From: Streptomyces pristinaespiralis | Lineage (GTDB): Bacteria; Actinomycetota; Actinomycetes; Streptomycetales; Streptomycetaceae | Direction: 5' to 3' | DNA length: 64,000 bases | Assembly (NCBI RefSeq): GCF_001278075.1 | Contig: NZ_CP011340.1 | Coordinates: forward strand, 248,001 to 312,000 | Part shown: positions 24,909 through 55,055 of the stretch, in pieces | How positions within the stretch are numbered: position 1 is the stretch's first letter | Layout of the letters: each line of letters begins with the position of its first letter | Made by a program: the position numbers and the translations under genes | Notes under the pieces: generated by a model | The model's database searches: none | What the model saw: the letters and a program-made list of their open reading frames with translations, nothing else | Told to the model about the DNA's origin: nothing

Positions 24909-25361
24909 TCACATGACGTCGGCGGCGACGAAGCCCAGCTCCTTGAGCATCGGCAGGTAGTTGAAGACGTCGTAGTGCTCGATGATCTTTCCGGCGTCGT
25001 CGAAGCGCAGCTCCTCGAGCATGAACCAGGTGACCTTCTTGCCGGTCGCGGCCTTGCCGAAGAAGTCGCCCCGGTGGGTGGCGGTCACGGTGATCCGCAG
25101 GATGACGCGGTCGCCTTCGGAGACGGCGCTCCTGACGTCCAGGTGCAGGTCCGGGAAGGCGGCGAGTCCGCCGCGCATCGCGGCCTTCATGATCTCGGAG
25201 TCGACCGGGCGGTCCTCGGAGAAGTGCTTGATGTCCGGCGACCAGTGCGTGAAGATCCCGTCCAGGTCCCAGCGGTTCCAGGCGGCGGCGCAGTCCAGCG
25301 CGATCTGCTTGTTGCGCTCCTGGACGGTGACGGCGGGCTGCTCGGCGAGTGTTGCGGTCAT
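24909..25361 (-). CDS. SnoaL-like polyketide cyclase/hydroxylase
   Basis: 150 residues, NTF2-like. NKQIALDCAAAWNRWDLDGIF, FPDLHLDVRSAVSEGDRV and FMLEELRFDDAGKIIEHYDVFN are typical of SnoaL-like proteins. Two members occur in this cluster (other at 14092); in comparable anthracycline clusters one closes the final ring and another acts as a 1-hydroxylase component with an SDR. Co-directional with the quinone oxidoreductase upstream (18-bp gap), suggesting one operon with the NmrA-like gene. Confidence 0.88.
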   Translation of the reverse strand: MTATLAEQPAVTVQERNKQIALDCAAAWNRWDLDGIFTHWSPDIKHFSEDRPVDSEIMKAAMRGGLAAFPDLHLDVRSAVSEGDRVILRITVTATHRGDFFGKAATGKKVTWFMLEELRFDDAGKIIEHYDVFNYLPMLKELGFVAADVM

Positions 25362-28304: not shown

Positions 28305-28970
28305 TCAGGTGGTGCGCCAGGCGCGGGTGACGGCCTGGGCGCGATTCTTGTCGAGGAGGCCGTCGTCGCCGCGGGCGGCGGAGTCGACGTCGATGCCGAG
28401 GAAGCGGGGGTGGGCCGAGGTGGCGGGGAAGTCGCCGTGGCCCGCGGGGCCGAGGCCGCCGGCGAGGAGGAACGGCAGGGTGGTGGCGTCCGCCAGCTTC
28501 GTGACGGTGGTGTCGTCCAGGCGCTGGGCGGTGGAGCCGATGCGGCCGTCGCCCGTGACGGCGTCGAAGAGGAAGCAGTCGGCCCCGGCCCGCTCGTAGG
28601 CGCCGGTGAGCCGGCCCTCCAGGCAGGTGTCGTCGCGCACGTGCAGCACCTTGGCGATCTTCAGGCCGTCGGGGCACTGCGCGCGCAGGGCGCGCAGCAC
28701 GCCCGGGGGCTGGAAGCCGTGCAGTTGGACCCAGGGCACCTTCGCCGCCCGCACGGCCGTCGCCAGCACGCCGGGGTCGGCGGAGAAGGTGACCAGGACG
28801 GGCTCGAGGCCCGCGCCGAGGGCTCGGGCGGAGAGCACGGTGAGCTGATCGAGCGTCAGGTCGGCGCGGCCGCCCGGGACGTGGTGCCACAGGCCGATCA
28901 GGTCGGCACCGGAGGCGGCGACGGCGTCGACCTCCGCCGTGGTGGTGGCGCCGCAGATCTTGACCAGCAT
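28305..28970 (-). CDS. Phosphoribosylanthranilate isomerase paralogue (TrpF-like)
   Basis: 221 residues, (beta/alpha)8 barrel. TrpF catalyses an Amadori rearrangement of an N-phosphoribosyl amine. The catalytic pair is kept: Cys6 in KICG and Asp136 in CFLFDAVTG; VQLHGFQPPG and FLLAGGLGP are also family motifs. The usual FxFxxxSPR segment reads LWHHVPGGR, so the substrate-binding loop differs. Last gene of the leftward eight-gene operon starting at 35113; its ATG overlaps the transglutaminase-like stop (TGATG). It occurs without trpB, trpC or trpE, so it is a pathway paralogue, presumably rearranging a phosphoribosylated heterocycle. Confidence 0.9.
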   Translation of the reverse strand: MLVKICGATTTAEVDAVAASGADLIGLWHHVPGGRADLTLDQLTVLSARALGAGLEPVLVTFSADPGVLATAVRAAKVPWVQLHGFQPPGVLRALRAQCPDGLKIAKVLHVRDDTCLEGRLTGAYERAGADCFLFDAVTGDGRIGSTAQRLDDTTVTKLADATTLPFLLAGGLGPAGHGDFPATSAHPRFLGIDVDSAARGDDGLLDKNRAQAVTRAWRTT

Positions 28971-29659
28971 CAGGCGGCCGCCGTCCGGCCGGCGTCGTGC
29001 TCCAGGGATCCGGCCGTGAAGCGGTCGTCGCCGGCGCCGAACAGGCCGGGGTGCGCGGCGCGCAGGTCGGCCAGGACCGCCTCGTAGGGCAGGTCGTCGA
29101 ACTCGCCGTGGAAGCGCAGGAATTCCATCTGCCGGCGGCCCTTCAGGTCGAAGGGGTGGTGCACGCTGTCGGCGGTGCCGTCGAAGTCGAGGGGCGCCAT
29201 CCGGTAGAGCCGGCACAGGTTCTTGTTGAACACCGGTGTGGCGCGCACCCATTGGCCTTCAAGGCGTACGGAGGTCAGGCAGTGCTGGTGGAACACGTCG
29301 CCGCCGAGCAGGCTCACCAGCTTCTCGGAGGCGAGGTGGTTGCGCACGTCGGTCAGGACGAGGCGGGCGGGGATGCCGAGCGAGCGCAGGCCGGCCGCGT
29401 AGAGGACCGACTTGTGCAGGCACATGCCGGAGCGGCCGGCCGCCACGGTGCTGGCGCGCAGGCCCTGGCGGGTCAGGTCGGCGCCGTAGACCTCGTAGCG
29501 GACGGTGTCGCGGACCGCGTAGTAGAGGGCGACGGCCTGCTCGGTCGGGGTGGTGGCGCCGGGCGGCAGGGCGTCGGCGACGAAGGCGCGCACCTGCTCG
29601 GTCTCGTGGTCGAGGAACTCGGTGGCCTCGAGGGCGCCGGTGCTCAGTCGGGTCGTCAT
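28970..29659 (-). CDS. Transglutaminase-like cysteine protein
   Basis: 229 residues. Transglutaminase-like core with Cys80 in GRSGMCLHKSVLYAAGLRSLG and His124/His126 in DVFHQHCLTSVRLEGQW. The usual Asp after the Trp is replaced by ATPVFN, which I recall as common to a bacterial subgroup whose members read KATPAFN. Possible roles are acyl transfer, amide formation or hydrolysis on a carrier-bound intermediate; unknown. Follows the acyl-CoA dehydrogenase by 50 bp and overlaps TrpF. Confidence 0.82.
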   Translation of the reverse strand: MTTRLSTGALEATEFLDHETEQVRAFVADALPPGATTPTEQAVALYYAVRDTVRYEVYGADLTRQGLRASTVAAGRSGMCLHKSVLYAAGLRSLGIPARLVLTDVRNHLASEKLVSLLGGDVFHQHCLTSVRLEGQWVRATPVFNKNLCRLYRMAPLDFDGTADSVHHPFDLKGRRQMEFLRFHGEFDDLPYEAVLADLRAAHPGLFGAGDDRFTAGSLEHDAGRTAAA

Positions 29660-29709
29660 GGCAGCTGGGGATCCGCTTCGTTGTCGGTGGGGCTCGGTGG
29701 CCCGTCGGT

Positions 29710-30849
29710 TCAAAGGCCCAGGAGGGCGGCGATGCGGTTGCGCTGGGTCTCGGAGGTGCCGGAGTAGATCGTTCCGGCGACCGCGTTGCGCAGCTGGCTC
29801 TCGATGCCGAACTCGGCCATGTAGCCGTTGCCGCCGAAGATCTGCACGGCGGCCAGGGCGGAGGCGACGTTGGCCTCGCTGGTGACGAGTTTGGCCATGG
29901 CGATGTCGCGGGTGACGTTGTCGCCGGCGGTCATCCTGCGCGCCGTCTCGTACAGCCAGCGGCGGGAGGTCTCCACACCGGTGGCCATGTCGACGATTTT
30001 GTGGGAGACGGCCTGGTAGGAGCCGATGGGCTGCCCGAACTGGCTGCGGGTCTGCGCGTAGCGGACGCAGGCGTCCACCCGGCGCTGCATCTCGCCGGCG
30101 TTGATGACGAAGGAGCACAGGATCTCCCAGCGCATCACATGGTCCAGGACGAGGAACCCGCCGCCGGGCCGGCCGACGACCCGGTCGGCCGGGACGCGGC
30201 AGTCGTCGAAGTACAGCTCGCACAGCGGCGAGGTGCGCAGGCCCATTTTGGCCAGGGGCCGGCCGAGGGTCAGGCCCGGGGTGTCGCGGTCGACGAGGAA
30301 CGCGGTGATGCTCAGCGGCCCGGGACGGTCGCTGGTGCGGGCGTAGACGGTGAACACGTCGGCGACCGGCCCGTTGCTGACGAACGCCTTGCTGCCGTTC
30401 AGGACGTAGGCGTCGCCGTCGCGTACCGCCCGGGTGCGCATCGCCAGCGCGTCGGAGCCGCTGTCGGGTTCGCTGATGGCGTGGGCGCCGATCAGCTCAC
30501 CGGTGCAGATCCCGGGCAGGTGGCGCTCCTTGAGGGCGTCGGAGCCGAAGCGCTGCAGCGGGACGCCGGCCGCGACCATGTGGGTGCAGGCGGAGAAGTT
30601 CAGTCCGGCGTCGCGGCAGCCCTCCCCCAGGCCCTCCAGGACGTACATGGTGGTGGTCAGCGACTGGCCGAGTCCGCCGTACCGCTCGTCGAAGGGCAGT
30701 CCGAGGATTCCGGTGCCGGCCAGCCGCCGCCATGCCTCACGGGGGAACTCGGCGGCCGCGTCGCGCTCGACGTGCCCTTCGTCGAGCTTTTCGAGCACGG
30801 GCGCCAGGCCGTCGCGCAGGGCCTGCTGGTCCTTCGTGAAGTCGGCCAT
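29710..30849 (-). CDS. Acyl-CoA dehydrogenase-like flavoenzyme
   Basis: 379 residues, standard three-domain acyl-CoA dehydrogenase: IGAHAISEPDSGSDALAM (FAD-binding), GSKAFVSNGPVADVF and RSQFGQPIGSYQAVSHKIVD. The usual C-terminal catalytic Glu (YEGT) is Ser363 in IYSGTSETQRN, but Glu242 in MRWEILCSF aligns with the alternative base used by isovaleryl-CoA dehydrogenase, so the enzyme can be active. In the operon with a discrete adenylation enzyme and carrier it most likely works on a carrier-bound acyl group, for example changing the oxidation state of a nicotinyl-type ring (inference). ATG overlaps the cupin stop (TGATG). Confidence 0.9.
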   Translation of the reverse strand: MADFTKDQQALRDGLAPVLEKLDEGHVERDAAAEFPREAWRRLAGTGILGLPFDERYGGLGQSLTTTMYVLEGLGEGCRDAGLNFSACTHMVAAGVPLQRFGSDALKERHLPGICTGELIGAHAISEPDSGSDALAMRTRAVRDGDAYVLNGSKAFVSNGPVADVFTVYARTSDRPGPLSITAFLVDRDTPGLTLGRPLAKMGLRTSPLCELYFDDCRVPADRVVGRPGGGFLVLDHVMRWEILCSFVINAGEMQRRVDACVRYAQTRSQFGQPIGSYQAVSHKIVDMATGVETSRRWLYETARRMTAGDNVTRDIAMAKLVTSEANVASALAAVQIFGGNGYMAEFGIESQLRNAVAGTIYSGTSETQRNRIAALLGL

Positions 30850-31223
30850 CAGTAGTGGGAGAACTCGGGCGAGTCGAGGTTGTGGCTCTCGTCGCCGCGC
30901 AGCGCGGGGGTGAACATGCACACCAGGCGCAGGTCCTCGTGCGGGCTCGCCACCAGCCAGTGGGCGTCGTGCCGGTCGAGCGCGTACAGGGTGCCGGGGG
31001 TGATGGGGTGCGAGACGCCGTCGCTGTCGATCACCTCGCCGCTGCCCTCGATGCAGTAGCAGCTCTCGAGGTGGTTGCGGTACTCCAGGCGGGACTTGGT
31101 GCCCGCGCGGACGATGGTGTCGGTGACGGTGTAGCCGACACCGTCGGCCTGGGTGAGGAATCTGCGGCTGAGGCCGTTGCCCCAGTCGACACAGGTGACC
31201 TCTTCGAGCTTGCGGACGATCAT
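30849..31223 (-). CDS. Ectoine-synthase-like cupin (EctC paralogue)
   Basis: 124 residues, close to EctC along its whole length: MIVRKLEEVTCVDWGNGLSRR, YRNHLESCYCIEGSGEV, ITPGTLYALDRHDAHWL, DLRLVCMFTPAL. EctC closes N-gamma-acetyl-diaminobutyrate into a cyclic amidine with loss of water. The iron ligands known for EctC (Glu, Tyr, His) appear as Glu53, Tyr80 and His88. No ectA, ectB or ectD is present, so ectoine itself is unlikely to be made here. In this operon of trp paralogues it is a good candidate for forming a cyclic amidine in the heterocycle. Lies between TrpA-like and acyl-CoA dehydrogenase genes. Confidence 0.9.
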   Translation of the reverse strand: MIVRKLEEVTCVDWGNGLSRRFLTQADGVGYTVTDTIVRAGTKSRLEYRNHLESCYCIEGSGEVIDSDGVSHPITPGTLYALDRHDAHWLVASPHEDLRLVCMFTPALRGDESHNLDSPEFSHY

Positions 31224-31287
31224 GCGGGGTCTCCTTTCATACGGGGTGGTTCCGCGCTCTTCGCAACGGTGGGCCGCGAGGGGCCGC

Positions 31288-32286
31288 TCACGGCCCGCGC
31301 AGCTCCCTCACGAAGGAGCCGAACTCCTCGACGGGGTCGCGGCCTTCGGTCAGGGCCTGTTCGATACGGGCCACGCCGACGCTGCCGACGACGGCGGCGT
31401 CCGCGCCGAGGTCCTGCAGGAGCAGGGTGTCGGCGCGGGTCCTGACGCCGAAGCCGACCGCGACGGGCGCGGTGGCGGTGGCGCGCAGTGCGGCGACGGA
31501 CCGGGCCAGCCGGTCGTGGTCGAGGGCCGCGGCGGTGCCGCTGCGGCCGTAGTGGGCGACCAGGTAGAGGTAGGCGGTGGCCTGCGCCGCCGCCTCGGCG
31601 ACCGCGTCGGGCCGGGAGACGGCGTAGCAGGTGGTGACCAGCGGCAGGCCGGCGTCGTGGGCGGCCTCGTAGTGGGCGGTGCGCAGCCTGGGCGGGACGC
31701 CGTGCAGCAGCAGTCCGTCGCAGCCGGCGTCGCGCACGGCGGCGGCGAAGTCGCCGGGGGCGGTGCCTTTGACGGTGTGGCTGAAGTCGGCGAGCAGCGC
31801 GATGCGCAGTCTCTTCAGGCCGGGCCGGACGCGGGCGACGGCGGCGAGGACGGCGGCGAGGTCGGTGCCGTGGGCCAGGGCCCGGTCGGCGGAGCGGCGG
31901 ATGACGGGCCCGTCGGTGACGGATCCGGGGAAGGGGACGGCCAGTTCGAGGCAGTCGATGTCGCTCTCGTCGAGGAGGGCGACAAGGTCGGGCAGCCGGT
32001 CCAGCGGCGGGTCGCCCGCGTTGAGGAACAGCGCGAGGCCCGGCCGGCCGGGCGCGGCACGGGTGAAGAAGCCCTCGGCGGCGGGCACGACGGCAGGCGC
32101 GGTGCGGGGTGCGGTGCCGGTGCCGGTGGCGGTGGCGGTGGCGGTGGCGGTGGCATGGGTGGGGCCGGTTCCCGACGCGGGGCCCGTGACGGGGGCGGCG
32201 CCGGGTGCGGATGCGGGGCCGGTGCCGGGCGCGGGGCCCGTGGCGGGTGTGGGGCCCGTGGCGGGTGTGGGGCGGGGATCAGGCAT
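31288..32286 (-). CDS. Tryptophan synthase alpha-chain paralogue (TrpA-like) with low-complexity N-terminus
   Basis: 332 residues if ATG 32286 is used. Residues about 3-68 are a Pro/Ala/Thr/Gly repeat (PTPATGPTPATGPAPGTG, then ATATATATG); the TrpA barrel starts at AAEGFFTRAAPGRPG. Both catalytic residues are kept: Glu114 in LELAVPF and Asp125 in VTDGPVI, and phosphate-site VGFGV and VGSVG are present. TrpA cleaves indole-glycerol phosphate by retro-aldol chemistry; without a TrpB partner here it probably releases glyceraldehyde phosphate from another C-C-linked heterocycle (inference). The ATG overlaps the TrpD stop by 8 bp; a GTG just before the barrel could be an alternative start. Confidence 0.88.
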   Translation of the reverse strand: MPDPRPTPATGPTPATGPAPGTGPASAPGAAPVTGPASGTGPTHATATATATATGTGTAPRTAPAVVPAAEGFFTRAAPGRPGLALFLNAGDPPLDRLPDLVALLDESDIDCLELAVPFPGSVTDGPVIRRSADRALAHGTDLAAVLAAVARVRPGLKRLRIALLADFSHTVKGTAPGDFAAAVRDAGCDGLLLHGVPPRLRTAHYEAAHDAGLPLVTTCYAVSRPDAVAEAAAQATAYLYLVAHYGRSGTAAALDHDRLARSVAALRATATAPVAVGFGVRTRADTLLLQDLGADAAVVGSVGVARIEQALTEGRDPVEEFGSFVRELRGP

Positions 32287-33319
32287 GGGCCACCTCCGTG
32301 GCGCGTCGCAGCCGGTCGACCAGGGCGAGGGCCGAGCCGTCGTTCAGGACCGCGCGGGCGCCGCGCAGTGCCTGGTGCCAGTCGCCGGTGAGACGGCCGG
32401 CCACGGCGAGGGCCGCCGCGTTGAGGCAGACCGCGTCCTCGGCCGCCGGGCGGCCGCGGCCGGCGAGCAGGTCCAGGACGTCGCGGACGGGGTCGGCGCC
32501 GGGCCGCAGGTCCTCCAGGCCTCCGGGGCCGAGACCGAGCGCGGCGGGATCGAGGACGAACTCGTCCTCGCCGCCGCCTTCGTAGGTGCGCACCAGGTTG
32601 GGGGCGAAGCCGACCAGTTCGTCGGCGCCCGTGTCGTTGGTGGCCAGCCACACGGACCCGCCGGTGCGGCGGGCGGTGTGCTCGGCGGCGTGCCGCAGCC
32701 CGGGCACGAGCCGCGGGTCGGAGACGCCGGTGAGCTGGGCGTCGACCGGCATGTCGGCGAGGAACGGACCGAGGGCGTTGACGAAGCGGCCGAGCCTGCG
32801 GACGTCGAGCGGCAGCACCCCCCGGGCGAGCAGGCCCAGTTCGGCCGGGTAGACGAACATTCCGGCGAACGCGATGCCGCACCGCTCGAGCATCTCGTGG
32901 GTCTGCTCGTAGGAGGAGGCCGTCTCGATGCCCAGGCGTTCGAGCAGGTCGAGGGAGCCGAGGGCGGAGGTGTAGGCGCGGGAACCGGTCTTGACGACGC
33001 GGGTGCCCATCGCGGCGGCGGTCAGCGCGGCCGCGGTGGAGATGTTGAGGGTGCGCGGGCCTCCGCCGGTGCCGACGATGTTGACGGCGCCCTCGAACAC
33101 CGGCCGTCCGGCGCCCTGTCCGGGGCGGCGTTCGGCGAGCGAGTCGAGCAGCGCGGTCAGCGTGGTGCGGCCGGGCATCTGCGTGGACAGGGACGCGAGC
33201 AGGGCCACGCTCTCGCCCCGGCGCAGCGCGCCGTCGTGCAGGCTGTCCCAGAACGAGCGCCACTGGGGAAGGTCGACGGGCCGGTCCTGGGCGATCAGGG
33301 CGGCGACGGCGTCGTGCAT
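32279..33319 (-). CDS. Anthranilate phosphoribosyltransferase paralogue (TrpD-like) with altered acceptor site
   Basis: 346 residues. Transfers phosphoribose from PRPP to an amine or ring nitrogen. PRPP and magnesium elements are kept: GTGG (83-86), NIST (92-95) and Asp233-Glu234. The anthranilate-contacting motifs are not: KHGNR reads KTGSR (110-114) and the HPAM segment reads YPAE (Tyr157). The acceptor is therefore probably not anthranilate. This fits a nicotinate-type acceptor as proposed for kosinostatin. Preceded by the carrier gene (2-bp gap) and followed by TrpA-like. Confidence 0.9.
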   Translation of the reverse strand: MHDAVAALIAQDRPVDLPQWRSFWDSLHDGALRRGESVALLASLSTQMPGRTTLTALLDSLAERRPGQGAGRPVFEGAVNIVGTGGGPRTLNISTAAALTAAAMGTRVVKTGSRAYTSALGSLDLLERLGIETASSYEQTHEMLERCGIAFAGMFVYPAELGLLARGVLPLDVRRLGRFVNALGPFLADMPVDAQLTGVSDPRLVPGLRHAAEHTARRTGGSVWLATNDTGADELVGFAPNLVRTYEGGGEDEFVLDPAALGLGPGGLEDLRPGADPVRDVLDLLAGRGRPAAEDAVCLNAAALAVAGRLTGDWHQALRGARAVLNDGSALALVDRLRRATEVAHA

Positions 33320-33321
33320 GG

Positions 33322-33585
33322 TTAGGCGGCCTCCGCCCGGGTGCGGGAGGCGTCGGCGATGAACGCCTCGATGGCCGCCACCGACTTGAAGGACTCGGGG
33401 TCCAGGTCCACCTCGTCGGTGTTGATGTCGTACCGGTCCTCCAACCAGGCGATCACCTTGAGCAGGCCGAGGCTGTCGATGACGCCGCCCTCCAGCAGGT
33501 CGTCGTGGTCGGCCAGGTCCCGCGCGGGCATGTCGGGCAGGAACTCCTCGACGATGAACTCCTTGATGGCCTGGGCGTGGGGCAT
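33322..33585 (-). CDS. Discrete peptidyl/acyl carrier protein
   Basis: 87 residues. Phosphopantetheine site Ser38 in GGVIDSLGLLKV, an acyl-carrier four-helix pattern close to D-alanyl/PCP-type carriers. It follows the adenylation enzyme by 1 bp and precedes TrpD-like; the three are surely co-translated. Likely holds the activated acid of the heterocycle pathway while flavoenzyme and phosphoribosyl steps occur. Confidence 0.93.
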   Translation of the reverse strand: MPHAQAIKEFIVEEFLPDMPARDLADHDDLLEGGVIDSLGLLKVIAWLEDRYDINTDEVDLDPESFKSVAAIEAFIADASRTRAEAA

Positions 33586-33586
33586 G

Positions 33587-35113
33587 TCAGTTCTCCTTGG
33601 TGAAGTGGTCCTTCACGACACGGTCGCGGTCGACCTTGCCGGTGGAGGTCCGGGGCAGCGGCTCGTCGGTGAAGCGCAGGACCGAGGGGATCGCGGCTTT
33701 CGGCAGACCGCGTGCCAGATGGCCGCGCAGGGCCAGGCTGTTGAGGCCGCTGCCCGGGGTGCGGCGGGCCACGGCGTGCAGCAGCCGGCCGGCCACCTCG
33801 TCGGGCAGGGCCAGGACGGCGGCCTCGGTGACCTCGGGGTGGGCGAGCAGCACGTGCTCGACCTCCTGGACGTTGATGCGCACACCGCGGACCTTGACCT
33901 GGAAGTCGGTGCGGCCGGCCAGGGTCAGCGCGCCGTCGGCGGCGCGGTGCACCAGGTCGCCGGTGCGGTACCAGCGCCGGCCGTCGGCGCCGGCGGGGTG
34001 CGGCACGAACACCGGCCGGGCGGCGGCCGCGCCGAGGTAACCGCTCGTCTGGAACGGTGTGGTGACCCACAGCTCGCCGCTGCCGGGGCCCTCGAGGACG
34101 GTGCCGTCGTCGGTGACGACGAGGGCGCCGGCGCCGGGCAGCGGGCGGCCCAGCGGCAGCGTCGCGCCCGCCGCGGCCTGCTCGCCGGTCACCTCGTGCA
34201 CAAAGCTGTCGTTGGTCTCGGTGCAGCCGTAGATGTTGTGCAGCCGCGCGTTCGGGTACAGGCGCGGCAGTTCGGCCAGGACCGGGCCGGGCAGGGCGTC
34301 ACCGGTGGTCATCGCGTGCCGTACGGAGGGCAGGACGGTGCCGTGGTCGCGGGCGGCGTCGCTGACCAGGCGGTGGAACATGGGCACGGCCTGGACGACG
34401 TGGACGTCGTGGTGCTCGATCGTCTCCAGCAGGTGGCGGCCGCTCATGGCCTGGTCGGGGTCGACGAGGACGACACGGCCGCCGTGCGCGAGGGTGGTCC
34501 ACACGTCGAGCAGGCACAGGTCGAAGTTGAGCGGCGCGTAGTTGAGGACGTTCGTGCCCTCTTCGATGCCGAACGCGTCGGCGGCCCAGGCGGTGAAGCG
34601 GTCGACGGCGCCGCCGGCGATGGGCACGATCTTGGGCAGCCCGGTCGACCCGGAGGTGGTCAGCAGCAGGACCGGGGCCTCGGGATCGGCGGGCGTGTCG
34701 TGCGCGGCGCGGAGGTCGCCGTACGGCGTGTCGTCGCCCTGCCCCGCGTCGCCCTGCCCCGCGTCGTCCGGCCCGTCGTCCGGCCCGTCGTCCGGCCTGT
34801 CGGGCAGGGGGACGGCGCCGGCCTGCTCGTACAGCTGCTCCAGCACGTCCTTGCCGAGCGTCGCCGACGGCAGCAGCACCGGGCGGCGCTCCAGCATGCA
34901 GGCGAGGAGCAGCGCGACGGTGCCGGGCGACTTGACGGCCGGGACCCCGACGGGGCCGCGGCCGGGCGTGTCCGCGACACGGGCCCTTTCCCGCTCTGCG
35001 CGTCGCCACAGGGCGCCGTAGGTGACCTCGTCGCCGTGCCACACGAGCGCCGTCCGTTGTGGCGCACGGCGCGCATGCGCCCGGATGCCCTCGACGAGTG
35101 TGCCGCCGCCCAT
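33587..35113 (-). CDS. Discrete NRPS-type adenylation enzyme
   Basis: 508 residues. Core motifs A3 LLTTSGSTGLPKIVP, A5 NIYGCTETND, A7 WYRTGDLVHR, A8 GRTDFQVKVRGVRIN and A10 RTSTGKVDRD with the catalytic Lys. Activates a carboxylic acid and loads it on the adjacent carrier. Between A1 and A3 there is a short repeat (PDDGPDDGPDDAGQGDAGQGDD) absent from typical members. ATG 35113 has AAGGGGG upstream; the frame stays open further without homology. By analogy with the kosinostatin report, nicotinate is a candidate substrate; I cannot read specificity reliably. First gene of the eight-gene leftward operon. Confidence 0.92.
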   Translation of the reverse strand: MGGGTLVEGIRAHARRAPQRTALVWHGDEVTYGALWRRAERERARVADTPGRGPVGVPAVKSPGTVALLLACMLERRPVLLPSATLGKDVLEQLYEQAGAVPLPDRPDDGPDDGPDDAGQGDAGQGDDTPYGDLRAAHDTPADPEAPVLLLTTSGSTGLPKIVPIAGGAVDRFTAWAADAFGIEEGTNVLNYAPLNFDLCLLDVWTTLAHGGRVVLVDPDQAMSGRHLLETIEHHDVHVVQAVPMFHRLVSDAARDHGTVLPSVRHAMTTGDALPGPVLAELPRLYPNARLHNIYGCTETNDSFVHEVTGEQAAAGATLPLGRPLPGAGALVVTDDGTVLEGPGSGELWVTTPFQTSGYLGAAAARPVFVPHPAGADGRRWYRTGDLVHRAADGALTLAGRTDFQVKVRGVRINVQEVEHVLLAHPEVTEAAVLALPDEVAGRLLHAVARRTPGSGLNSLALRGHLARGLPKAAIPSVLRFTDEPLPRTSTGKVDRDRVVKDHFTKEN

Positions 35114-43468: not shown

Positions 43469-43526
43469 CCGTCGGCCAGCATGGGGCGCCGCCGCCCAAG
43501 GCAGTTCCCTTCAGGAGGACATGGAA

Positions 43527-44783
43527 ATGAAGATCGACGAGTGCCGCATCTGCGGCAACCGTGCGCTGCTGCCCGTGCTGGACCTCGGCTCCCAGGCCCT
43601 GACCGGCGTCTTCCCGAAGAACCGGGAGGAGACGGTGGCGTCGGTGCCGCTGGAGCTCGTCAAGTGCTCGCAGCCCGACGGCTGCGGGCTGGTGCAGCTG
43701 CTGCACACGGCCGACTTCGACCTGATGTACGGAGACCACTACGGCTACCGTTCCGGGCTCGGCGAGTTCATGATCCGGCACCTGCAGGACAAGGTCGCCT
43801 CCCTCCTGAAGACGGTCGAGGTGCGGCCCGGCGACATCGTCGTCGACATCGGCAGCAACGACTCGACCCTGCTGCGCGGTTATCCGTCGGACCCGGCGCT
43901 GCGCCCGCAGCTGGTGGGCATCGACCCGACCGGCGGCAAGTTCCGGCACCTGTATCCCGAGGGCGCCGAGCTGATCACCGAGTACTTCTCGCGGAAGGTG
44001 TTCGCCGAGCGGTTCGGCAGCCGCCGCGCGAAGGTCGTCACCTCGGTCGCGATGTTCTACGACCTGCCGCGTCCCATGGAGTTCATGCAGGACGTGCACG
44101 ACATCCTCGCCGAAGACGGTGTCTGGCTGATGGAGCAGAGCTACATGCCGGCGATGCTCGAGGCCACGGCGTACGACGTGGTGTGCCACGAGCACCTGGA
44201 GTACTACGCGCTCAGCCAGATCGAGTGGATGGCCGAGCGGGTGGGGCTGAAGGTCGTACGGGCGGAGCTGAACGACGTGTACGGCGGCAGCCTGTGCGCG
44301 GTGCTGGCCCGCAAGGACTCGTCCGTCGCGGTGGACGAGGCGTCCGTGGCCCGGGTCCGTGCGCACGAGACGGCGCTCGCCCTGGACACGGCGGCCCCCT
44401 ACGAGGCGTTCGCCGCGCGGACGGTCCGCTACCGCGAGGAGCTGCTGGCGTTCCTCGACGACTCGCGGCGGTCGGGGAAGCTGACGCTCGGGTACGGCGC
44501 GTCGACCAAGGGCAACGTGATCCTTCAGTACTGCGGCCTGAGCGAGAAGGACCTGCCGGTCATCGGCGAGGTGAACCCGGAGAAGCACGGCGCGTTCACC
44601 CCCGGCACCTACATCCCGATCGTCTCCCAGGAGGAGGCCAGGTCCCGCCGCCCCGACCAGCTGCTGGTGCTGCCGTGGATCTACCGCGACGGGTTCGTGG
44701 AGCGGGAGCGCGCGTACGTCGCCGGCGGCGGCAGGCTGGTCTTCCCGCTGCCGGTGCTCGACGTGGTGGGCGGGGCGCGATGA
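43527..44783 (+). CDS. NDP-deoxyhexose 3-C-methyltransferase
   Basis: 418 residues, TylC3/EryBIII-like. N-terminal zinc-binding Cys set (CRICG, CSQPDGCGL), SAM-binding VVDIGSNDSTLL, the catalytic-site HEHLEYYAL segment and the C-terminal GYGASTKGNVILQYC domain. Adds a methyl branch at C-3 of a 4-keto-2,6-dideoxyhexose. AGGAGG lies 8 nt before ATG 43527; ATG 43521 is only 2 nt from it, so the second ATG is preferred. First gene of a three-gene sugar operon with 4-nt overlaps. Confidence 0.94.
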   Translation: MKIDECRICGNRALLPVLDLGSQALTGVFPKNREETVASVPLELVKCSQPDGCGLVQLLHTADFDLMYGDHYGYRSGLGEFMIRHLQDKVASLLKTVEVRPGDIVVDIGSNDSTLLRGYPSDPALRPQLVGIDPTGGKFRHLYPEGAELITEYFSRKVFAERFGSRRAKVVTSVAMFYDLPRPMEFMQDVHDILAEDGVWLMEQSYMPAMLEATAYDVVCHEHLEYYALSQIEWMAERVGLKVVRAELNDVYGGSLCAVLARKDSSVAVDEASVARVRAHETALALDTAAPYEAFAARTVRYREELLAFLDDSRRSGKLTLGYGASTKGNVILQYCGLSEKDLPVIGEVNPEKHGAFTPGTYIPIVSQEEARSRRPDQLLVLPWIYRDGFVERERAYVAGGGRLVFPLPVLDVVGGAR

Positions 44784-45418
44784 CGGCCGGTACGGCACGC
44801 GGCTTCTCGACGTCCACCGCCACGGTGCGGGAGCTGGCGGTCGCCGGCGCCTACGAGTTCACGCCGCGGGTGCACCGCGACGAGCGGGGCCTGTTCGTCT
44901 CCCCGCTCCAGGAGGAGGCGTTCGTCGCCGCGGTGGGCCGCCCCTTCACGGTGGCGCAGACCAACCACAGCCGCTCGGCCCGCGGGGTGATGCGCGGGGT
45001 GCACTTCACCACCACCCCGCCCGGGCAGGCCAAGTACGTGCACTGCGCCCGCGGCAGGGCCATGGACGTGGTCGTCGACATCCGGGTCGGCTCACCGACG
45101 TTCGGGGCCTGGGACACCGTCGAGATGGACACCGAGTCCTTCCGCGCGGTGTACCTCCCGGAGGGGGTGGGGCACGCGTTCTTGTCCCTGGAGGACGACA
45201 CGGTGATGTCCTACCTGGTCTCGACCCCCTACCGGGCGGACCTGGAGCAGGCGATCGACCCGCTCGACCCGGCGCTGGGCCTGCCCTGGCCGAAGGACAT
45301 GTCCTTCACGCTCTCCCGGCGCGACACCCAGGCGGTCGGCCTGGCAGAGGCGCGGGCCAAGGGCATGCTGCCGCGGTACGAGGACTGCCCGGCGGCCGCG
45401 GCCGCCGCGGACCGGTGA
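44780..45418 (+). CDS. NDP-4-keto-6-deoxyhexose 3,5- (or 5-) epimerase
   Basis: 212 residues, RmlC-like cupin: FTPRVHRDERGLFVSPLQ, NHSRSARGVMRGVHF (catalytic His), YVHCARGRAMDVVVDIR, YLPEGVGHAFLSLEDDTVMSYL. Converts the D- to the L-hexose. ATG 44780 overlaps the methyltransferase stop (ATGA). Confidence 0.95.
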   Translation: MTAGTARGFSTSTATVRELAVAGAYEFTPRVHRDERGLFVSPLQEEAFVAAVGRPFTVAQTNHSRSARGVMRGVHFTTTPPGQAKYVHCARGRAMDVVVDIRVGSPTFGAWDTVEMDTESFRAVYLPEGVGHAFLSLEDDTVMSYLVSTPYRADLEQAIDPLDPALGLPWPKDMSFTLSRRDTQAVGLAEARAKGMLPRYEDCPAAAAAADR

Positions 45419-46395
45419 CCGTGCGGCCCGGCCCGGGCGGCGCGCGGGCCGGGCGGGTCGCGGTCGTCGGCGCGACCGGCTGTGTGGGGCGGCACGTGTG
45501 CGCCGCGTTCGCAGGCGGCGGCAGCGAGGTCGTCGGCGTGGCCCGCCGGTACGCGCCGCACGTCGGCGCGCACCGCTTCGTGCCGCTGGACGCCGCGGGC
45601 TGCTCCCCCGAGCAGCTGGCGGAGTTCCTGGCGGCCGAGGCGGTGGACGCCGTCGTGAACGCGACGCTCGGCTGGGGTGAGGAACTGCACCGGGTGAACG
45701 TGGAGTTGGTGGAGCGGCTGATCGGCGCGCTGCGGCTGCTGCCCGCGGCGCGCCGTCCGCGGCTGGTCCAGCTCGGCACGGTCCACGAGTACGGTCCGGT
45801 GCCGCAGGGCACGCCGGTGACCGAGCTGACGCCGCCGGCGCCGGTGACCGAGTACGCGCGGGCGAAGCTGGCCGCGTCCCGGGCGGTGCTGGGGGCGGCG
45901 GGGATCGACGCGGTGGTGCTGCGCATGGCGAACACGATCGGCCCGCACCCCGCGCCCGGCAGCTTCCTCGGTTCGCTGGCGGCCCGCTTCACCGAGGCGG
46001 CCGCCTCGCCGGGCGAGCGGATCGAGCTGACCGTGGCGGCCGGCGCCCGGCGCGACTACGTCGACGTGCGGGATGCGGCGGACGCGGTCGTACGGGCGGC
46101 GTTCGCCGGGCATCTCGGCCAGGACCAGCGGCTGTTCAACATCGGCACCGGCACCGCCAGGGGCATCGACACGCTGGTCCTGGCCCTCGCTCAGGCCTGC
46201 GGCCTGCCCGCGTCGGCGCTCGCCCTGCGGACGGGCGAGGTGGCGGCACAGGGCGCGTCGACGGGCACCGACTTCACCTGCCTGGACGCGTCACGGGCCC
46301 GGGCGGTGCTGGGATGGTCGCCGCGGCGGTCACCGGCGGAGTCGATGCGGGCGATGGCCGAGACGGCGCGCGCGACCTGCTTCGCGACGTCCTGA
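45415..46395 (+). CDS. NDP-hexose 4-ketoreductase (NAD-dependent epimerase/dehydratase family)
   Basis: 326 residues. VVGATGCVGRHVCAAF cofactor motif, then LVQLGTVHEYGPVPQG with Thr and Tyr, ITEYARAKLAASRAV-like YxxxK (TEYARAKLA) and VLRMANTIGPH. Reduces the C-4 ketone as the last step before glycosyl transfer. GTG 45415 overlaps the epimerase stop (GTGA). A long non-coding repeat region follows. Confidence 0.92.
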   Translation: MTVRPGPGGARAGRVAVVGATGCVGRHVCAAFAGGGSEVVGVARRYAPHVGAHRFVPLDAAGCSPEQLAEFLAAEAVDAVVNATLGWGEELHRVNVELVERLIGALRLLPAARRPRLVQLGTVHEYGPVPQGTPVTELTPPAPVTEYARAKLAASRAVLGAAGIDAVVLRMANTIGPHPAPGSFLGSLAARFTEAAASPGERIELTVAAGARRDYVDVRDAADAVVRAAFAGHLGQDQRLFNIGTGTARGIDTLVLALAQACGLPASALALRTGEVAAQGASTGTDFTCLDASRARAVLGWSPRRSPAESMRAMAETARATCFATS

Positions 46396-47684
46396 CGCTC
46401 CCCTCCCCCGGGCCCCTTGCCCATGGGGGCCCACTTCCGCACCGGGCCGGGCCCCGGACCCGCACCGCGCTCCGCGCGGGGTTCCTGGCCCTCTACGCCT
46501 GGCGGCGTGGGCGGGGCCCCTTCACGGCCCCCGCGCCTCGCATGCCGGCGAGGCTGAACTGCCTCCACCCGGCGCAGGCATGAGCCACGGCCGGGAGGAC
46601 CAGCGTCGCCCCCGCCGGCACGGCCGGCTTCGGGTTCGCCCCGGCCACGGGGAGACCCGGGAGGCGACCGAAGGCCCCACGGGCTCCGGGCGGAGCCCGG
46701 TTCGGTCGACGGGACGAGGCCGTACGGGACCGGGCCGACCCGGTTCGGGACGGGCTCCCCGGCCGAGCCGGGCCGAACCAGGCTCGGCCGCAGCCCGGTT
46801 CCGGGACGGGCCCCACGGCCACGCACGCCGGGCCGTACCGGACCCGAATGGCGAGGCCCCGACCGGACGGTCAAGCTCAAGCCCCGCCGGCGGCCTTGGC
46901 GCAGGCGCAGGCCCCGGCAGGACAGGCGAGTTCGAGCCCCGCCGGCGACTGGGGCGCAGCCCCCAGGGCGAAGCCCGACCGGACCGGCAAGCTCAAGCCC
47001 CGCCAGCGGCTGAGACGCAGACGAAGGCCCCGGCAGGACGGGCGAGTTCGAGCCCCGCCGGCGATTGAGGCGCAGACCCCCGGAGTGAAGCCCGACCGGA
47101 CCGGCAAGCTCAAGCCCGCCGGCGGCTGAGGCGCAGGCGCAGGCCCCGACCGGACGGGCAAGATCAAGCCCCACCGGCGGCTGAGGCGCAGCCCCCAGGG
47201 CGAAGCCCGACCGGACCGGCAAGCTCAAGCCCCGCCGGCGGCTGAGGCGCAGGCCCCGGGGCGAGGCCCCGACCGCGACCGGCAAGCTCAAGCCCGCCGG
47301 CGGCCGAGGCGTGGAGGCCCGGGTTCGGGGGTGAGGCCCGACTGGACCAGCAAGCTCAAGCCCCGCCACGAGCGGAGGCGCAGACACCGGCAGGACGGGC
47401 GAGCTCAAGCCCCGCCGGTGGCAGAGGCGCAGACCCCCGACCAGACGGGCAAGCTCGAGCCCTGCCGGCGACTGGGGCGCAGACCCCGGGGCGAAGCCCG
47501 ACCGGACCGGCAAGTTCAAGCCCCGCCGGCGATTGAGGCGCAGGCCCCGACCGCATCGGCGAGTTCGAGCCCCGCCGGGGGTTGTGGCGTGGTGGCCCGG
47601 TTCGGGGGCAGGGCCCGTGACGGGGCGCGCGCGAGAGGGTGTCCAGCGGGGCTCCAGCAGGAGCCGCGAGGGTTCGGCTTTGTG
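46396..47684. other. 1.29-kb gene-free stretch containing a repeat array
   Basis: No homologous gene on either strand; the long open frames here are by-products of repeats and GC bias. Bases 46396-46860 are unrelated GC-rich DNA with short GGGCCGGGCC-like palindromes; 46866-47595 hold the repeat array. Confidence 0.75.
46866..47595. repeat. Array of about 13 degenerate 50-65-bp repeats
   Basis: Each unit contains GGCAAGCTCAAGCCCCGCCG or the variant GGCGAGTTCGAGCCCCGCCG, then GCGGCTGAGGCGCAG and a variable G/C tract with GGGCGAAGCCCGACCGG. I count 13 copies (starting near 46869, 46927, 46986, 47041, 47101, 47156, 47216, 47279, 47346, 47396, 47446, 47506 and 47556). It resembles the dispersed extragenic repeat (CCCGTCCGGCGATTGAGG type) often seen singly in Streptomyces, here expanded in tandem. 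Confidence 0.85.
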
Positions 47685-48887
47685 ATGACGATTCAACGGG
47701 CACACGACGACATCCTGAAGCTGATTCTGGCCGCCGAGGGCGGCACCGAGCAGATCGACGCCGCGATCCGCGCGGTCGGCGCCGAGCGCACCGCGGCGAT
47801 CCTCGCCGACGAGCTGGTGAACCGGGCGGATCTGCACGAGATCCCCGGGCCGGGCACCGCCGGGGTCGACATCCAGCTCGCGCTCGCCTTCGACGGTGGC
47901 ACGGTCCATCACGTCGTGCGCGTGGGCAAGAGCGCCGAGCACGAGGCGGGCCGCGTCGACGCGCCGCACGCCACGCTCGAGTCGGATCTGGCCGAGCTGC
48001 TGCGCTCGGTGCTGGGGCCGTGGCGCGGCGTGGAGGCGCAGACGCTGCGGATCGTGTGGCACGACCTGGAGAACGTGGAGCGCCTCGGCGGCACCATGCA
48101 CGTCTTCCCGGTCGTCAGGCGTCTGGTGCGCGGCACCACCGGCCGGCACGAGGACCTGGGCGAGCTGTCGCTGCGCAACGGCTCCGACAAGTGGGGGCTG
48201 CACTTCTACACGCCGCACTACGACCGGCATTTCGGGCCGCTGCGCGACCGGCCGCTGAAGATCCTGGAGCTGGGGATCGGCGGTTACGGCAATCCCGCCT
48301 CCGGCGGTGGTTCGCTGCGCATGTGGAAGCGCTACTTTCCCCGTTCGGTCGTCTACGGTGTCGACGTCTTCGACAAGGCGCCGCTGCGTGAGCAGCGCAT
48401 CCACACCGTGGAGGGTGATCTGTCGAATCCGGAGTTCCTGGAGTCGCTGGGACGTGACCTGGGCCCGTTCGACATCGTCATCGACGACGCCAGCCACGGC
48501 AACGCCGACCTCATCGCCGCGTTCAAGGCGCTGTTCCCGTACGTCAGGCCGGGCGGCCTGTACGCGGCGGAGGATCTGCAGACGTCGTACTGGCCCGGCT
48601 ACGGCGGCAGTTCGAAGGAGCTGAACTCGCCGGCCACCAGCATGGGTTTCCTCAAGGCGCTGCTGGACGGCCTCAACCACGAGGAGCGTGAGCTCCCGGA
48701 GGGCACGACGGCGTCCGAGACGGATCTGACGCTGACCGGTGCGCACTTCTACCCGAGCCTGGCGATCTTCGAGAAGGGCGTCAACGCGGAGGGTGCGAGC
48801 GCGTCGTGGATCCCGCGGCAGCAGATGAGCTACGAGGAGATGTCCGCCGTCGACTGGGGCGAGGGTCTGACCGCCGACAAGGACTGA
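47685..48887 (+). CDS. Sugar O-methyltransferase (MycE/TylE-like)
   Basis: 400 residues, the same size as MycE (about 399). N-terminal auxiliary domain (about 1-150), then the SAM/metal-dependent domain: GSDKWGLHFYTPHYDRHF, ILELGIGGYGNPASGGGSL, FDIVIDDASHGNADLIAAF, GGLYAAEDLQTSYWPGYGG. Metal ligands are expected at the Asp pair of DDASH. Methylates a sugar hydroxyl, usually after glycosylation. ATG 47685 (in-frame GTG directly before) follows the repeat region; it faces the KS gene across a terminator. Confidence 0.9.
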   Translation: MTIQRAHDDILKLILAAEGGTEQIDAAIRAVGAERTAAILADELVNRADLHEIPGPGTAGVDIQLALAFDGGTVHHVVRVGKSAEHEAGRVDAPHATLESDLAELLRSVLGPWRGVEAQTLRIVWHDLENVERLGGTMHVFPVVRRLVRGTTGRHEDLGELSLRNGSDKWGLHFYTPHYDRHFGPLRDRPLKILELGIGGYGNPASGGGSLRMWKRYFPRSVVYGVDVFDKAPLREQRIHTVEGDLSNPEFLESLGRDLGPFDIVIDDASHGNADLIAAFKALFPYVRPGGLYAAEDLQTSYWPGYGGSSKELNSPATSMGFLKALLDGLNHEERELPEGTTASETDLTLTGAHFYPSLAIFEKGVNAEGASASWIPRQQMSYEEMSAVDWGEGLTADKD

Positions 48888-48908
48888 GAGCGACGACAGC
48901 GCCGTACG

Positions 48909-48947
48909 CGGACGGGGCCGCCTCCACCAGGGAGGCGGCCCCGTCCG
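48909..48947. terminator. Bidirectional hairpin terminator
   Basis: Perfect 17-bp stem with a 5-nt loop between the convergent O-methyltransferase and ketosynthase genes. Confidence 0.85.
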
Positions 48948-48963
48948 TGTGCTCCGGCGGGTC

Positions 48964-50691
48964 TCAGAGCGCGGGCGGGGGCTCGTCGTCGAACCAGTAG
49001 GAGCGGCGCTGGTACGGGGTGCCGGGCAGGTGGGCGCGGGCGGGGCGGTCGTGTTCCTTCCACAGCACGTCCCAGTCGGGGGTGGCGCCGTCGGCCCATG
49101 CGCGGGCGAGCGGGTCCTGGGCGGGCGGCAGGTCGGCGCCGTCGGCGACGGACCGCAGGGCGGTGCGCAGGGCGGCGGTGTCGGACACGACGAGGGCGCG
49201 TCGGTGTTTCATGGCGCGCCGGCCGTACTGCAGCGTGTGGGCGAGGGAGGCGAGTTCGGGTGCGTGGGGGCCGTCGAGCTGGTGCAGCAGGCGGCGGGCC
49301 AGCAGGGCGACGGCCTCCTCGCTGCCGGCGGACAGCGGTACGACGTGCGGGCGGCCGGCTGGGCCGGCGGCGGGGGCGGCTGTGGCCGGCCGCGGGGGGC
49401 GGGGGGCTTCTTCGACGACCGCGTGGGACATGGAGCCGCCGAGTCCGAAGGCGTTGACGGCGCCGATGCGCGGGGTGCTTCCCGCGGGCCAGGGCACGTT
49501 CTCGACGGGGAGGCCGAGGGGCGCGTCGCCGACGGGGAGTTTGCCGTCGGCCTCGTCGAGGCCGGCGATCCTCGGGATGGTGCCGGCGCGCAGGGCGAGG
49601 ATCGTCTTGACGACTCCGATGAGTCCGGCGGCGGCTTCGAGGTGGCCGATGTTGGCCTTGACGGAGCCGACCCACAGCCGGCCGTCGGGCCCGGCGGCGG
49701 GCCCGTCGACGAGGTGGGCCAGGGCGGCGATCTCGGTGGCGTCGCCGCCGCGGGTGCCGGTGCCGTGGGCCTCGAGGTGGCCGAGGTCGCGGGGGGTGAG
49801 CCCGGCCTTGGCGAGGGTCTGCCGGACGAGGGCGGTCTGGGAGTCCTGGTCGGTGCCGGTCAGTCCGCCGCCGCGGCCGTTGTGGGCGCTGCCGACGGAG
49901 CGGATGACGGCGTGCACGGGGTCGCCGTCGGCGAGGGCGGCGTCGAGGGGTTTGAGGAGCAGGCAGGCGCCGCCCTCGCCGCGCAGGTAGCCGTTGCGGG
50001 CGGCGCTGAAGGGCACCGAGTCGCCGGTGGGTGACAGGGCGCCGCCGAGGTAGGCGTTGGTGGTGTAGTAGCCGGCGCTGAACAGGTTGGGTGAGCCGAC
50101 CAGTGCCATGGGGTAGTCGCCCGCGCGCAGGCCCTGGACGGCGAAGCCGAGGGCGGACAGCCCGGCGGAGCAGGCGGAGTCGATGACCATGCTGGGGCCG
50201 GTCCAGCCGAACTGGTAGGAGACGCGGTTGGCGAGGAAGGCCATCATGGTGCCGGGGAACGCGGCGCCGTCGGAGCGTCGGCCGCGTGCGGTCATGCGTT
50301 CGGCGTAGTCGGACATGAAGGCGCCGGCGAAGACGGCGACGGGTTCGCCGGTGAGTGTCTGCGGGTCCAGGCCGGCGTTCTCCACGGCGTGCCAGGCCAG
50401 TTCGAGCATGAGCCGGTGCTGGGGGTCCATGAAGGCGGCCATGCGGTGGGCGATGCCGAAGAAGCGGGCGTCGAAGCCGTCGATGGAGTCGAGGAGGAAC
50501 GCGCGGGGGGTGTTGGCGGCGGCGACCTGCTCGTCGAGTCCGTACCAGCGTCCGGCGGGCACGTCGTGCAGGTGCCGTTCGCCGCGGGAGACGACGTCCC
50601 AGAATTCGGTCAGGGTCTCTGCGCCGGCGGTCCGGCAGGACATGCCGATGACGGCGACGGGTGCGGCGTCGGTGCCGTGGGCGGTTGTCAC
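48964..50691 (-). CDS. Stand-alone type I ketosynthase with trans-AT-style C-terminal linker
   Basis: 575 residues. Complete KS with catalytic Cys174 (DSACSAGLSAL), His309 (EAHGTGT) and His350 (KANIGHLEAAAG), so it should condense rather than only decarboxylate. After the KS comes a linker ending LPGTPYQRRSYWFDD, the post-AT YPFxxxRYW-like tail of modular PKSs, but there is no AT or other domain. It is the last gene of the beta-branching operon (GTGA overlap with the second hydratase). Probably makes a beta-ketoacyl-ACP on the carrier at 54670 for branching; the AT would act in trans. Confidence 0.92.
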   Translation of the reverse strand: MTTAHGTDAAPVAVIGMSCRTAGAETLTEFWDVVSRGERHLHDVPAGRWYGLDEQVAAANTPRAFLLDSIDGFDARFFGIAHRMAAFMDPQHRLMLELAWHAVENAGLDPQTLTGEPVAVFAGAFMSDYAERMTARGRRSDGAAFPGTMMAFLANRVSYQFGWTGPSMVIDSACSAGLSALGFAVQGLRAGDYPMALVGSPNLFSAGYYTTNAYLGGALSPTGDSVPFSAARNGYLRGEGGACLLLKPLDAALADGDPVHAVIRSVGSAHNGRGGGLTGTDQDSQTALVRQTLAKAGLTPRDLGHLEAHGTGTRGGDATEIAALAHLVDGPAAGPDGRLWVGSVKANIGHLEAAAGLIGVVKTILALRAGTIPRIAGLDEADGKLPVGDAPLGLPVENVPWPAGSTPRIGAVNAFGLGGSMSHAVVEEAPRPPRPATAAPAAGPAGRPHVVPLSAGSEEAVALLARRLLHQLDGPHAPELASLAHTLQYGRRAMKHRRALVVSDTAALRTALRSVADGADLPPAQDPLARAWADGATPDWDVLWKEHDRPARAHLPGTPYQRRSYWFDDEPPPAL

Positions 50692-54942: not shown

Positions 54943-55026
54943 TCGCTTCTCTCCTCAGCCTGTTCGGCTCGCCCGGCCCGCTCGACCGGCCGTGCGAGCA
55001 ATCGGTGTGACGCTAGGAAGGGCGTC

Positions 55027-55055
55027 TCGGGGACCGCTGGAGCCGTCCTCGAGAC
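55027..55055. promoter_or_regulatory. SARP-type box H upstream of the beta-branching operon
   Basis: Three heptamers with an exact 11-bp period (TCGGGGA, TGGAGCC, TCGAGAC on the plus strand; TCGAGGA, TCCAGCG on the minus strand) lie 85-113 bp before the ACP start at 54942. Confidence 0.62.

Follow-up and report, generated by a model that had tools for sequence, protein, structure and literature searches.

A candidate carrier-bound, indole-pathway-like gene cassette of quinocycline type in Streptomyces pristinaespiralis, with a TrpC-like gene of the same type in a second cluster

Introduction

The closest described counterparts of the locus treated here, an eight-gene operon of Streptomyces pristinaespiralis at 28305..35113 of the stretch analysed (the window, 64,000 bases, positions 248001-312000 of the 8,532,592-base contig NZ_CP011340.1), are the kosinostatin/quinocycline clusters (kst, ksn). 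In the accessible part of a 2026 survey, kosinostatin clusters are reported in the S. albidoflavus group and in S. spiroverticillatus, and replacement of ksnC3, a phosphoribosylanthranilate (PRA) isomerase gene, abolished kosinostatin in S. albidoflavus (PMC13099267). The same part predicts a version D kosinostatin cluster within a 210-kb supercluster of S. pristinaespiralis, which is very probably the organism studied here, and states generally that the modules of the survey are more widespread than the whole cluster; the general kosinostatin assignment is thus already in print there (PMC13099267). The pyrrolopyrrole of kosinostatin is stated to come from nicotinate and ribose (accessible parts of PMC5321127; table in PMC7918784). 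Ectoine synthase (EctC) of Halomonas elongata is reported to make 5-amino-3,4-dihydro-2H-pyrrole-2-carboxylate (ADPC), a five-membered cyclic amidine, from glutamine as a side reaction, and one of the two sources describes the condensation of two glutamines (available sections of PMC4795551 and PMC6344544).

In the present analysis the operon is read, with a probability of about 55%, as an indole-pathway-like cassette that works on a carrier-bound acid and supplies, via glutamine/ADPC, the bicyclic nitrogen unit of a quinocycline/kosinostatin-type aromatic polyketide. Open-access literature searches returned nothing on a route combining tryptophan enzymes, EctC and glutamine, nor anything on it under the kst gene names.

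Gene content of the operon

An earlier sequence-only reading had proposed a leftward operon in which tryptophan-pathway enzymes are reused on a carrier-bound acid, and all eight genes were found on the minus strand in the order it gave:

33587..35113, minus strand: discrete adenylation (A) enzyme, about 508 amino acids (aa) from an ATG at 35113, the open frame extending to 35311; Pfam AMP-binding 152 bits and AMP-binding_C 49 bits; pocket motifs NFDLC, TNDS and TSTGK
33322..33585, minus strand: carrier protein (peptidyl carrier protein, PCP), 87 aa; Pfam PP-binding 28 bits
32279..33319, minus strand: TrpD-like phosphoribosyltransferase, 346 aa; Pfam Glycos_transf_3 133 bits; NCBIfam trpD 139 bits, under the curated cut-off of 199
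31288..32286, minus strand: TrpA-like protein, 332 aa, its N-terminal ~70 aa of low complexity; Pfam Trp_syntA; NCBIfam trpA 121.8 bits, over the cut-off of 102.35
30849..31223, minus strand: EctC-like cupin, 124 aa, with the published metal ligands; Pfam Ectoine_synth 121 bits; NCBIfam ectoine synthase 136.6 bits, over the cut-off of 128
29710..30852, minus strand: acyl-CoA-dehydrogenase-like protein of the prolyl-PCP dehydrogenase type; Pfam Acyl-CoA_dh; NCBIfam RedW 381 bits (cut-off 650) and PigA 380 bits (cut-off 500), hence outside curated membership
28970..29659, minus strand: transglutaminase-like protein, 229 aa; Pfam Transglut_core 60 bits
28305..28970, minus strand: TrpF-like (PRA isomerase) protein, 221 aa, with catalytic Cys and Asp; Pfam PRAI 40 bits; NCBIfam 76 bits, under the cut-off of 216

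The intergenic gaps are +1, +2, -8, +64, -4, +50 and +2 bases; with the ATG at 28970 as the start of TrpF, the last becomes -1. With spacing of -8 to +64 bases the eight genes read as one translationally coupled operon. Every protein exceeds the Pfam gathering score of its family, while the TrpD-like, TrpF-like and dehydrogenase proteins, which score below their NCBIfam cut-offs, are diverged rather than standard members. The housekeeping trpD is just 37% identical to the TrpD-like protein (residues 76-345). A PDB sequence search gave 4irn, a prolyl-ACP (acyl carrier protein) dehydrogenase, as top match of the dehydrogenase, and no match for the TrpF-like protein (E up to 0.001) or the transglutaminase-like protein (E up to 0.1); the predicted structure of the latter has a mean pLDDT (predicted local distance difference test) of 52.5.

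Among the eight genes there is no trpB, trpC or trpE by Pfam and NCBIfam, and no ectA or ectB by Pfam. As the sequence-only reading held, these tryptophan-pathway homologues are turned to secondary metabolism, standing beside genes for an A enzyme, a PCP and a dehydrogenase. The front end of prodiginine and pyrrole pathways shares those three types, the dehydrogenase being closest to RedW/PigA/AnaB, whereas the operon adds the EctC-like cyclase and the Trp-like enzymes and lies outside the curated cut-offs.

Distribution and families of the cassette

The TrpF-like protein (E up to 1e-25) was found in 15 of 295 Streptomyces genomes and, among 396 genomes sampled across the phylum, in this genome only. 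Six related loci emerged from a scan of the wider collection. Five are strong: a Rhodospira metagenome-assembled genome (MAG), Actinokineospora diospyrosa, an Acetobacteraceae MAG, Roseomonas genomospecies 6 and Azospirillum griseum. The sixth, from a Burkholderiales MAG (L008), is weak, matching TrpF (32%) and TrpA (32%) only and having no TrpC match; it was excluded from the alignments and from the 20 TrpF-bearing loci considered below. One order, A, PCP, TrpD, TrpA, EctC, dehydrogenase, TrpF, is shared by the 14 Streptomyces loci compared by tblastn, except L064 and L065, which are cut at contig ends and were also omitted from the ten one-cassette genomes discussed in the next section. Three of the four alphaproteobacterial loci (Acetobacteraceae, Roseomonas, Azospirillum) hold all eight genes, with TrpF in first place and, in Roseomonas and Azospirillum, with the transglutaminase-like gene ~7 kb past the dehydrogenase; in Rhodospira the contig breaks off after EctC. 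That other Streptomyces share both the genes and their order, and that the full set of eight recurs in three of the four alphaproteobacterial loci, speaks against a chance collection. Second, identical-scoring copies at the opposite chromosome end of two genomes (G203, G276) were each counted with the first as one cassette.

Two families can be told apart among the Streptomyces loci. The transglutaminase-like gene is present in Family I (the window, L056, L057, L058, L060) and missing from Family II (L059, L061-L063, L065-L069 and probably L064), which also has other neighbours, namely genes for a FabF-like ketosynthase (KS), an alpha-oxoamine-synthase-like enzyme, MaoC, a pyridoxal phosphate (PLP) decarboxylase and a multicopper oxidase. 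Trees separate the two, with support of at least 98 for both in the dehydrogenase tree and of 100/99 (Family II) and 89/90 (Family I) in that of TrpD. Around the alphaproteobacterial cassettes (L006, L007, L003; the Acetobacteraceae contig was annotated for one half) the neighbours scanned encode a KS, ACP, an AfsA-type hotdog protein, UbiD, an MMPL transporter and LolA-like proteins, surroundings which we take to resemble aryl-polyene clusters.

A TrpC-like ninth gene and a second operon

Of the 20 cassette loci that bear TrpF, 18 have a TrpC-like gene (indole-3-glycerol phosphate synthase, IGPS) directly after it, and the only two without one are the operon described here and its sister L056 in genome G178. 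Across the 295 Streptomyces genomes this TrpC type (E up to 1e-40) occurs in 17, which are all 15 with TrpF plus G052 and G188, whose cassettes look decayed, with TrpD in pieces and no match to PCP, EctC, TrpA or TrpF. The absence of trpC, noted in the sequence-only reading together with that of trpB and trpE, thus holds for the operon and fails for the genome, since a cassette-type TrpC lies ~100 kb away; TrpC as a usual member of the cassette had been missed.

This gene, the sole cassette-type TrpC of the genome, is found at ~173105-173776 of the contig, is uninterrupted and is 80% identical to the copy of a complete cassette. It belongs to a second operon (G000:C1 ~162-186 kb, G000 being the genome studied) of Family II that, like the first, has PCP, TrpD, EctC and dehydrogenase genes and, different from it, has TrpC together with the FabF-like KS, alpha-oxoamine-synthase-like, MaoC, PLP decarboxylase and multicopper oxidase neighbours. 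TrpA and TrpF are missing there, and the adenylation gene is degenerate, its pocket motif being replaced and its C-terminal lysine motif gone. A search for TrpF remnants in the second operon and TrpC remnants in the first gave weak, chance-level matches only, besides the start of the second operon's own TrpC.

The same gene pattern is seen in G178, and G255 combines a complete Family I cassette with a Family II cassette that lacks A and TrpF. These three genomes (G000, G178, G255) are those with two different cassettes, and each shows losses in one or both; in all three the union of the two cassettes gives the full core set. All ten one-cassette genomes that are fully in view have it complete in one place. 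Judged from these sequences, complementary loss looks to be the simplest reading of the two-operon pattern, and it is reasonably probable that in S. pristinaespiralis the TrpC-like step is supplied in trans by the second operon.

The Family II cluster around this operon (G000:C1:156342-209433, L015-L018) also encodes KASIII-like proteins and a B12 methionine synthase, and one large open frame in it carries a KS. Beside it lies a second transglutaminase-like gene (L015:14942-15952; G000:C1:162942-163952), 34% identical to that of the window.

A free-standing front half

A search with the dehydrogenase (E up to 1e-130) found 24 of the 295 Streptomyces genomes: the 15 with TrpF, G052, and eight others (G008, G013, G074, G185, G218, G221, G279, G299). 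Each of these eight carries a short cassette with A, PCP, EctC, dehydrogenase and transglutaminase-like genes, broken up by other genes in G218. In the 7.8-20 kb around the eight short cassettes tblastn gave no match to TrpD, TrpA, TrpF or TrpC, and genome-wide searches with TrpF and TrpC gave none in any of the eight genomes. In Actinokineospora one contig bears a comparable set of five genes, and another bears PCP, TrpD, TrpF, TrpC, UbiD and a PLP enzyme. From the occurrence of the front half on its own, the steps of EctC and the dehydrogenase are most likely part of this self-sufficient half and not of the Trp-like half.

At one short cassette, genes for a glutamate mutase E-type protein and an ATP-grasp protein adjoin (L152:3775-7432), with mutase homologues at L153:13798-16242, and a PLP enzyme near these two short cassettes is also present in Actinokineospora.

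Conserved and altered residues

The adenylation alignment comprised 22 sequences, 19 from the loci and three more (P0180, P0181, P0189), and the pocket was read by eye from the motifs. Only the degenerate copy of the second operon departs from NFD, TND and the TGK lysine; the remaining 21 of the 22 retain them, and the same motifs stand in all eight short cassettes. The Asp of the adenylation pocket binds the alpha-amino group of amino-acid substrates, so its retention in 21 of 22 enzymes favours an alpha-amino acid and argues against nicotinate. The pocket positions are presumably 235, 330 and 517 in PheA numbering, and residue numbers for TrpC and TrpA are likewise assumed. A proline-type code was considered and dropped, Pro ligases not being the best PDB match.

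The EctC-like proteins share with ectoine synthase the fold family and the metal ligands E57, Y84 and H92 (21/21), and also keep T40, Y52 and F106 (21/21). They differ in that the operon has no ectA or ectB and that N38, which holds the substrate carboxylate in ectoine synthase (residue roles from the available sections of PMC6344544), is replaced in all 21 aligned sequences. This replacement is as expected if the acid is tethered. A loss of Trp-21 is not claimed, as a Trp is present a few residues off.

The remaining cassette enzymes resemble TrpC, TrpD, TrpF and TrpA of the tryptophan pathway in family and in most catalytic residues: the Cys and Asp of TrpF are kept in 20/20, and in TrpA the Glu (17/18, the remaining row being a gap) and the Asp (17/18). 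Their substrate-binding motifs, in contrast, are altered, and their genes adjoin that of a carrier protein. Compared with the genome's own housekeeping enzymes, KHGNR of TrpD reads K[T/S]GSR in 20 of 20, and cassette TrpC has SAS in place of AES in 19 of 19. A loss of the Arg that binds the anthranilate carboxylate in TrpD was dropped as a claim, a three-residue insertion leaving the alignment ambiguous. The Glu of the dehydrogenase is kept in 20/20, and the transglutaminase-like proteins keep the Cys and His of the triad (9/9) and have Thr for the usual Asp (9/9). It is from sequence that the gene content, its conservation, the complementary losses and the kept catalytic residues are read.

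Proposed route and alternatives

We infer the substrate, the order of steps, the product and the supply of TrpC in trans as follows. The A enzyme would load an alpha-amino acid onto the PCP, most likely L-glutamine, or ADPC, a choice of acid to which we give slightly less than an even chance. The EctC-like cupin would form the cyclic amidine, taking water from glutamine to give ADPC, and the prolyl-PCP-dehydrogenase-like enzyme would carry out one alpha,beta-desaturation to 5-aminopyrrole-2-carbonyl-PCP. TrpD would add phosphoribose to the exocyclic nitrogen, TrpF would perform the Amadori step and the TrpC-like enzyme, probably provided in trans by the second operon ~100 kb away, itself without A, TrpA and TrpF, would close the second ring at the free pyrrole carbon; as closure would occur at a free carbon, no decarboxylation would be needed, unlike in the anthranilate route. 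TrpA would cleave off glyceraldehyde phosphate and leave a pyrrolo[2,3-b]pyrrole acyl group, an indole analogue, which the transglutaminase-like protein may release or transfer. Such a route would employ each core enzyme once and would fit the free-standing front half.

Several points weigh against this proposal. The adenylation pocket matches no glutamine code known to us, and the cassettes of G052 and G188 have no EctC match, yet their pocket is intact. Incorporation of labelled nicotinate into kosinostatin was reportedly found by Ma et al. in 2013, a study cited in PMC5321127 and PMC7918784. Some family scores of the operon lie under the curated NCBIfam cut-offs, and the transglutaminase-like proteins lack the usual third residue of the triad, which makes their proposed role tentative. 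As to the split, two-cassette genomes number only three, two of them closely related, which leaves few independent events, and the housekeeping TrpC at 6.37 Mb could also act in trans.

Nicotinate, the acid favoured by the sequence-only reading, would be loaded by the A enzyme on the PCP and contracted to a pyrrole by kstB-type enzymes, the ribose part coming from the Trp-like enzymes. It has the published origin of the pyrrolopyrrole on its side, and we nonetheless regard it as unlikely in view of the conserved alpha-amino Asp: none of the eight genes resembles a pyridine ring-contracting enzyme, no ring-contracting or aminating enzyme can be recognised among the cassette genes, an EctC fold that makes cyclic amidines would have no obvious role, and a second producer lacks kstB7, the proposed deformylase, in its cluster (according to the accessible part of PMC7918784). 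An equally doubtful variant keeps the same logic with another alpha-amino acid, for instance one that is glutamate-derived or methylated, or proline. The key pocket residues are invariant and fit no code known to us, and the glutamate mutase E-type gene adjoins the short cassette of G074, with a homologue at a similar place in G008; glutamine/ADPC, on the other hand, would give exactly the ring size and nitrogen positions of pyrrolo[2,3-b]pyrrole.

Somewhat less likely still is that the operon is decaying, either making no product without TrpC or relying on closure by the housekeeping TrpC or on spontaneous closure, with the second operon irrelevant. The missing TrpC here and in G178, the housekeeping gene and the decayed-looking cassettes of G052 and G188 would agree with this, whereas the eight genes are all open, their G178 orthologues are 86-99% identical and the cassette-type TrpC of the second operon is intact along its length and close to that of a complete cassette. 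That the operon is a misplaced primary tryptophan operon, as its Trp family names might suggest, is hardly credible given the missing trpB and trpE, the motifs of TrpD and TrpC altered against the housekeeping enzymes and the biosynthetic neighbours. Closest homologues confined to primary trp operons would have pointed that way; the housekeeping trpD is instead distant, and the relatives scanned adjoin polyketide synthase (PKS), sugar or similar biosynthetic genes.

Chromosomal and biosynthetic context

The assignment of the cassette to the quinocycline type, as distinct from the glutamine/ADPC route proposed for it, is made with high confidence. A type II KS pair near the cassettes of relatives, together with cyclase, short-chain dehydrogenase/reductase (SDR) and deoxysugar genes, supports an aromatic polyketide of this type. 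The type II KS of S. pristinaespiralis itself lies at 336152 and its partner at 333487, ~53 kb from the cassette; an STGCTSG motif is present in the KS, and a Cys motif of this kind is missing from the partner, as in pairs of KS and chain length factor (CLF). Homologues of the KS (81-85%) and of the partner (74-75%) lie ~10-11 kb from the cassette in three less related Streptomyces (G127, G108, G255), with which many genes surrounding the operon are shared at ~56-93% identity. The A enzyme has homologues of 60% identity in the S. albidoflavus group and S. spiroverticillatus, tied to the reported clusters by species name only. The quinocycline/kosinostatin-type context proposed from the window alone is thus supported. 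Three further features of the window form part of the surroundings:

24909..25361, minus strand: SnoaL-like polyketide cyclase, Pfam SnoaL 97 bits, in the context of the same cluster; homologues (78-93%) close to the cassette in G178, G127, G108 and G255
5152..6919: polyketide cyclase and SDR ketoreductase genes (Pfam), minus strand; homologues close to the cassette in the same four genomes
43521..60043, strand not specified: deoxysugar/glycosyltransferase genes, comprising a C-methyltransferase, an epimerase, an NDP-hexose (nucleoside diphosphate hexose) 2,3-dehydratase and an EryCIII-like transferase (Pfam)

By Pfam, with no search aimed at an octose branch-forming enzyme, the sugar genes of the window are deoxysugar genes and a C-methyltransferase. 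Among them, at 48964-54942, lies a beta-branching set of KS, HMG-CoA-synthase-like (3-hydroxy-3-methylglutaryl-CoA) and LnmK-type acyltransferase/decarboxylase genes, along with a possible ACP encoded by an open frame of 90 aa.

Four match pairs mirror exactly about the contig centre, the innermost at 388 kb (G000:C1 to at least 388449), so the operon falls within a terminal inverted repeat that measures 388 kb or more, and it and the antibiotic genes of the arm are present twice. The same arm has type II PKS genes and modular PKS/nonribosomal peptide synthetase (NRPS) genes, with very large open frames carrying repeated adenylation or KS matches; the modular genes are probably those of pristinamycin, and a 422-aa NtaA/DmoA-family monooxygenase encoded in the arm presumably corresponds to a subunit of pristinamycin IIA synthase. 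G178 has much of this arm, mostly at 84-99% and including the large NRPS/PKS genes, with little or no match to the deoxysugar genes (~293-312 kb) in the stretch compared. The locus thus resembles the kst and ksn clusters in its A enzyme, PCP, Trp-like enzymes, type II PKS and deoxysugar genes, and differs from them in that its own cluster is scattered among modular PKS/NRPS genes and perhaps also in that a TrpC-like gene is missing from the operon and present in a second, different cluster.

Implications

Judged by the papers searched, what is new comprises the ninth gene (TrpC-like), the split over two clusters, the free-standing front half and the wider distribution. To our knowledge, the origin of the kosinostatin pyrrolopyrrole from nicotinate and ribose is an odd published claim without clear enzymology; a simpler route is suggested by the conserved genes, by the front half that stands alone and by the pocket of the A enzymes. 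If the proposed reading is true, the cassette is a portable gene set in which the tryptophan pathway is replicated on a building block bound to a protein, and its spread over 15 of 295 Streptomyces genomes and over Azospirillum and relatives points to unknown products with this unit.

More tentatively, bacteria may have a second, carrier-bound indole-type pathway from glutamine and ribose to a pyrrolo[2,3-b]pyrrole acyl unit, serving as a portable building block for assembly lines of at least three kinds (aromatic type II PKS; KS with alpha-oxoamine synthase; and the aryl-polyene-like kind of Alphaproteobacteria), with two clusters sharing one copy of the pathway after complementary loss in pristinamycin-type Streptomyces. 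A pathway split over two clusters, if true, would be a clean natural case of mutually dependent antibiotic clusters, and the operon moved alone to another host would then fail without the distant TrpC-like gene.

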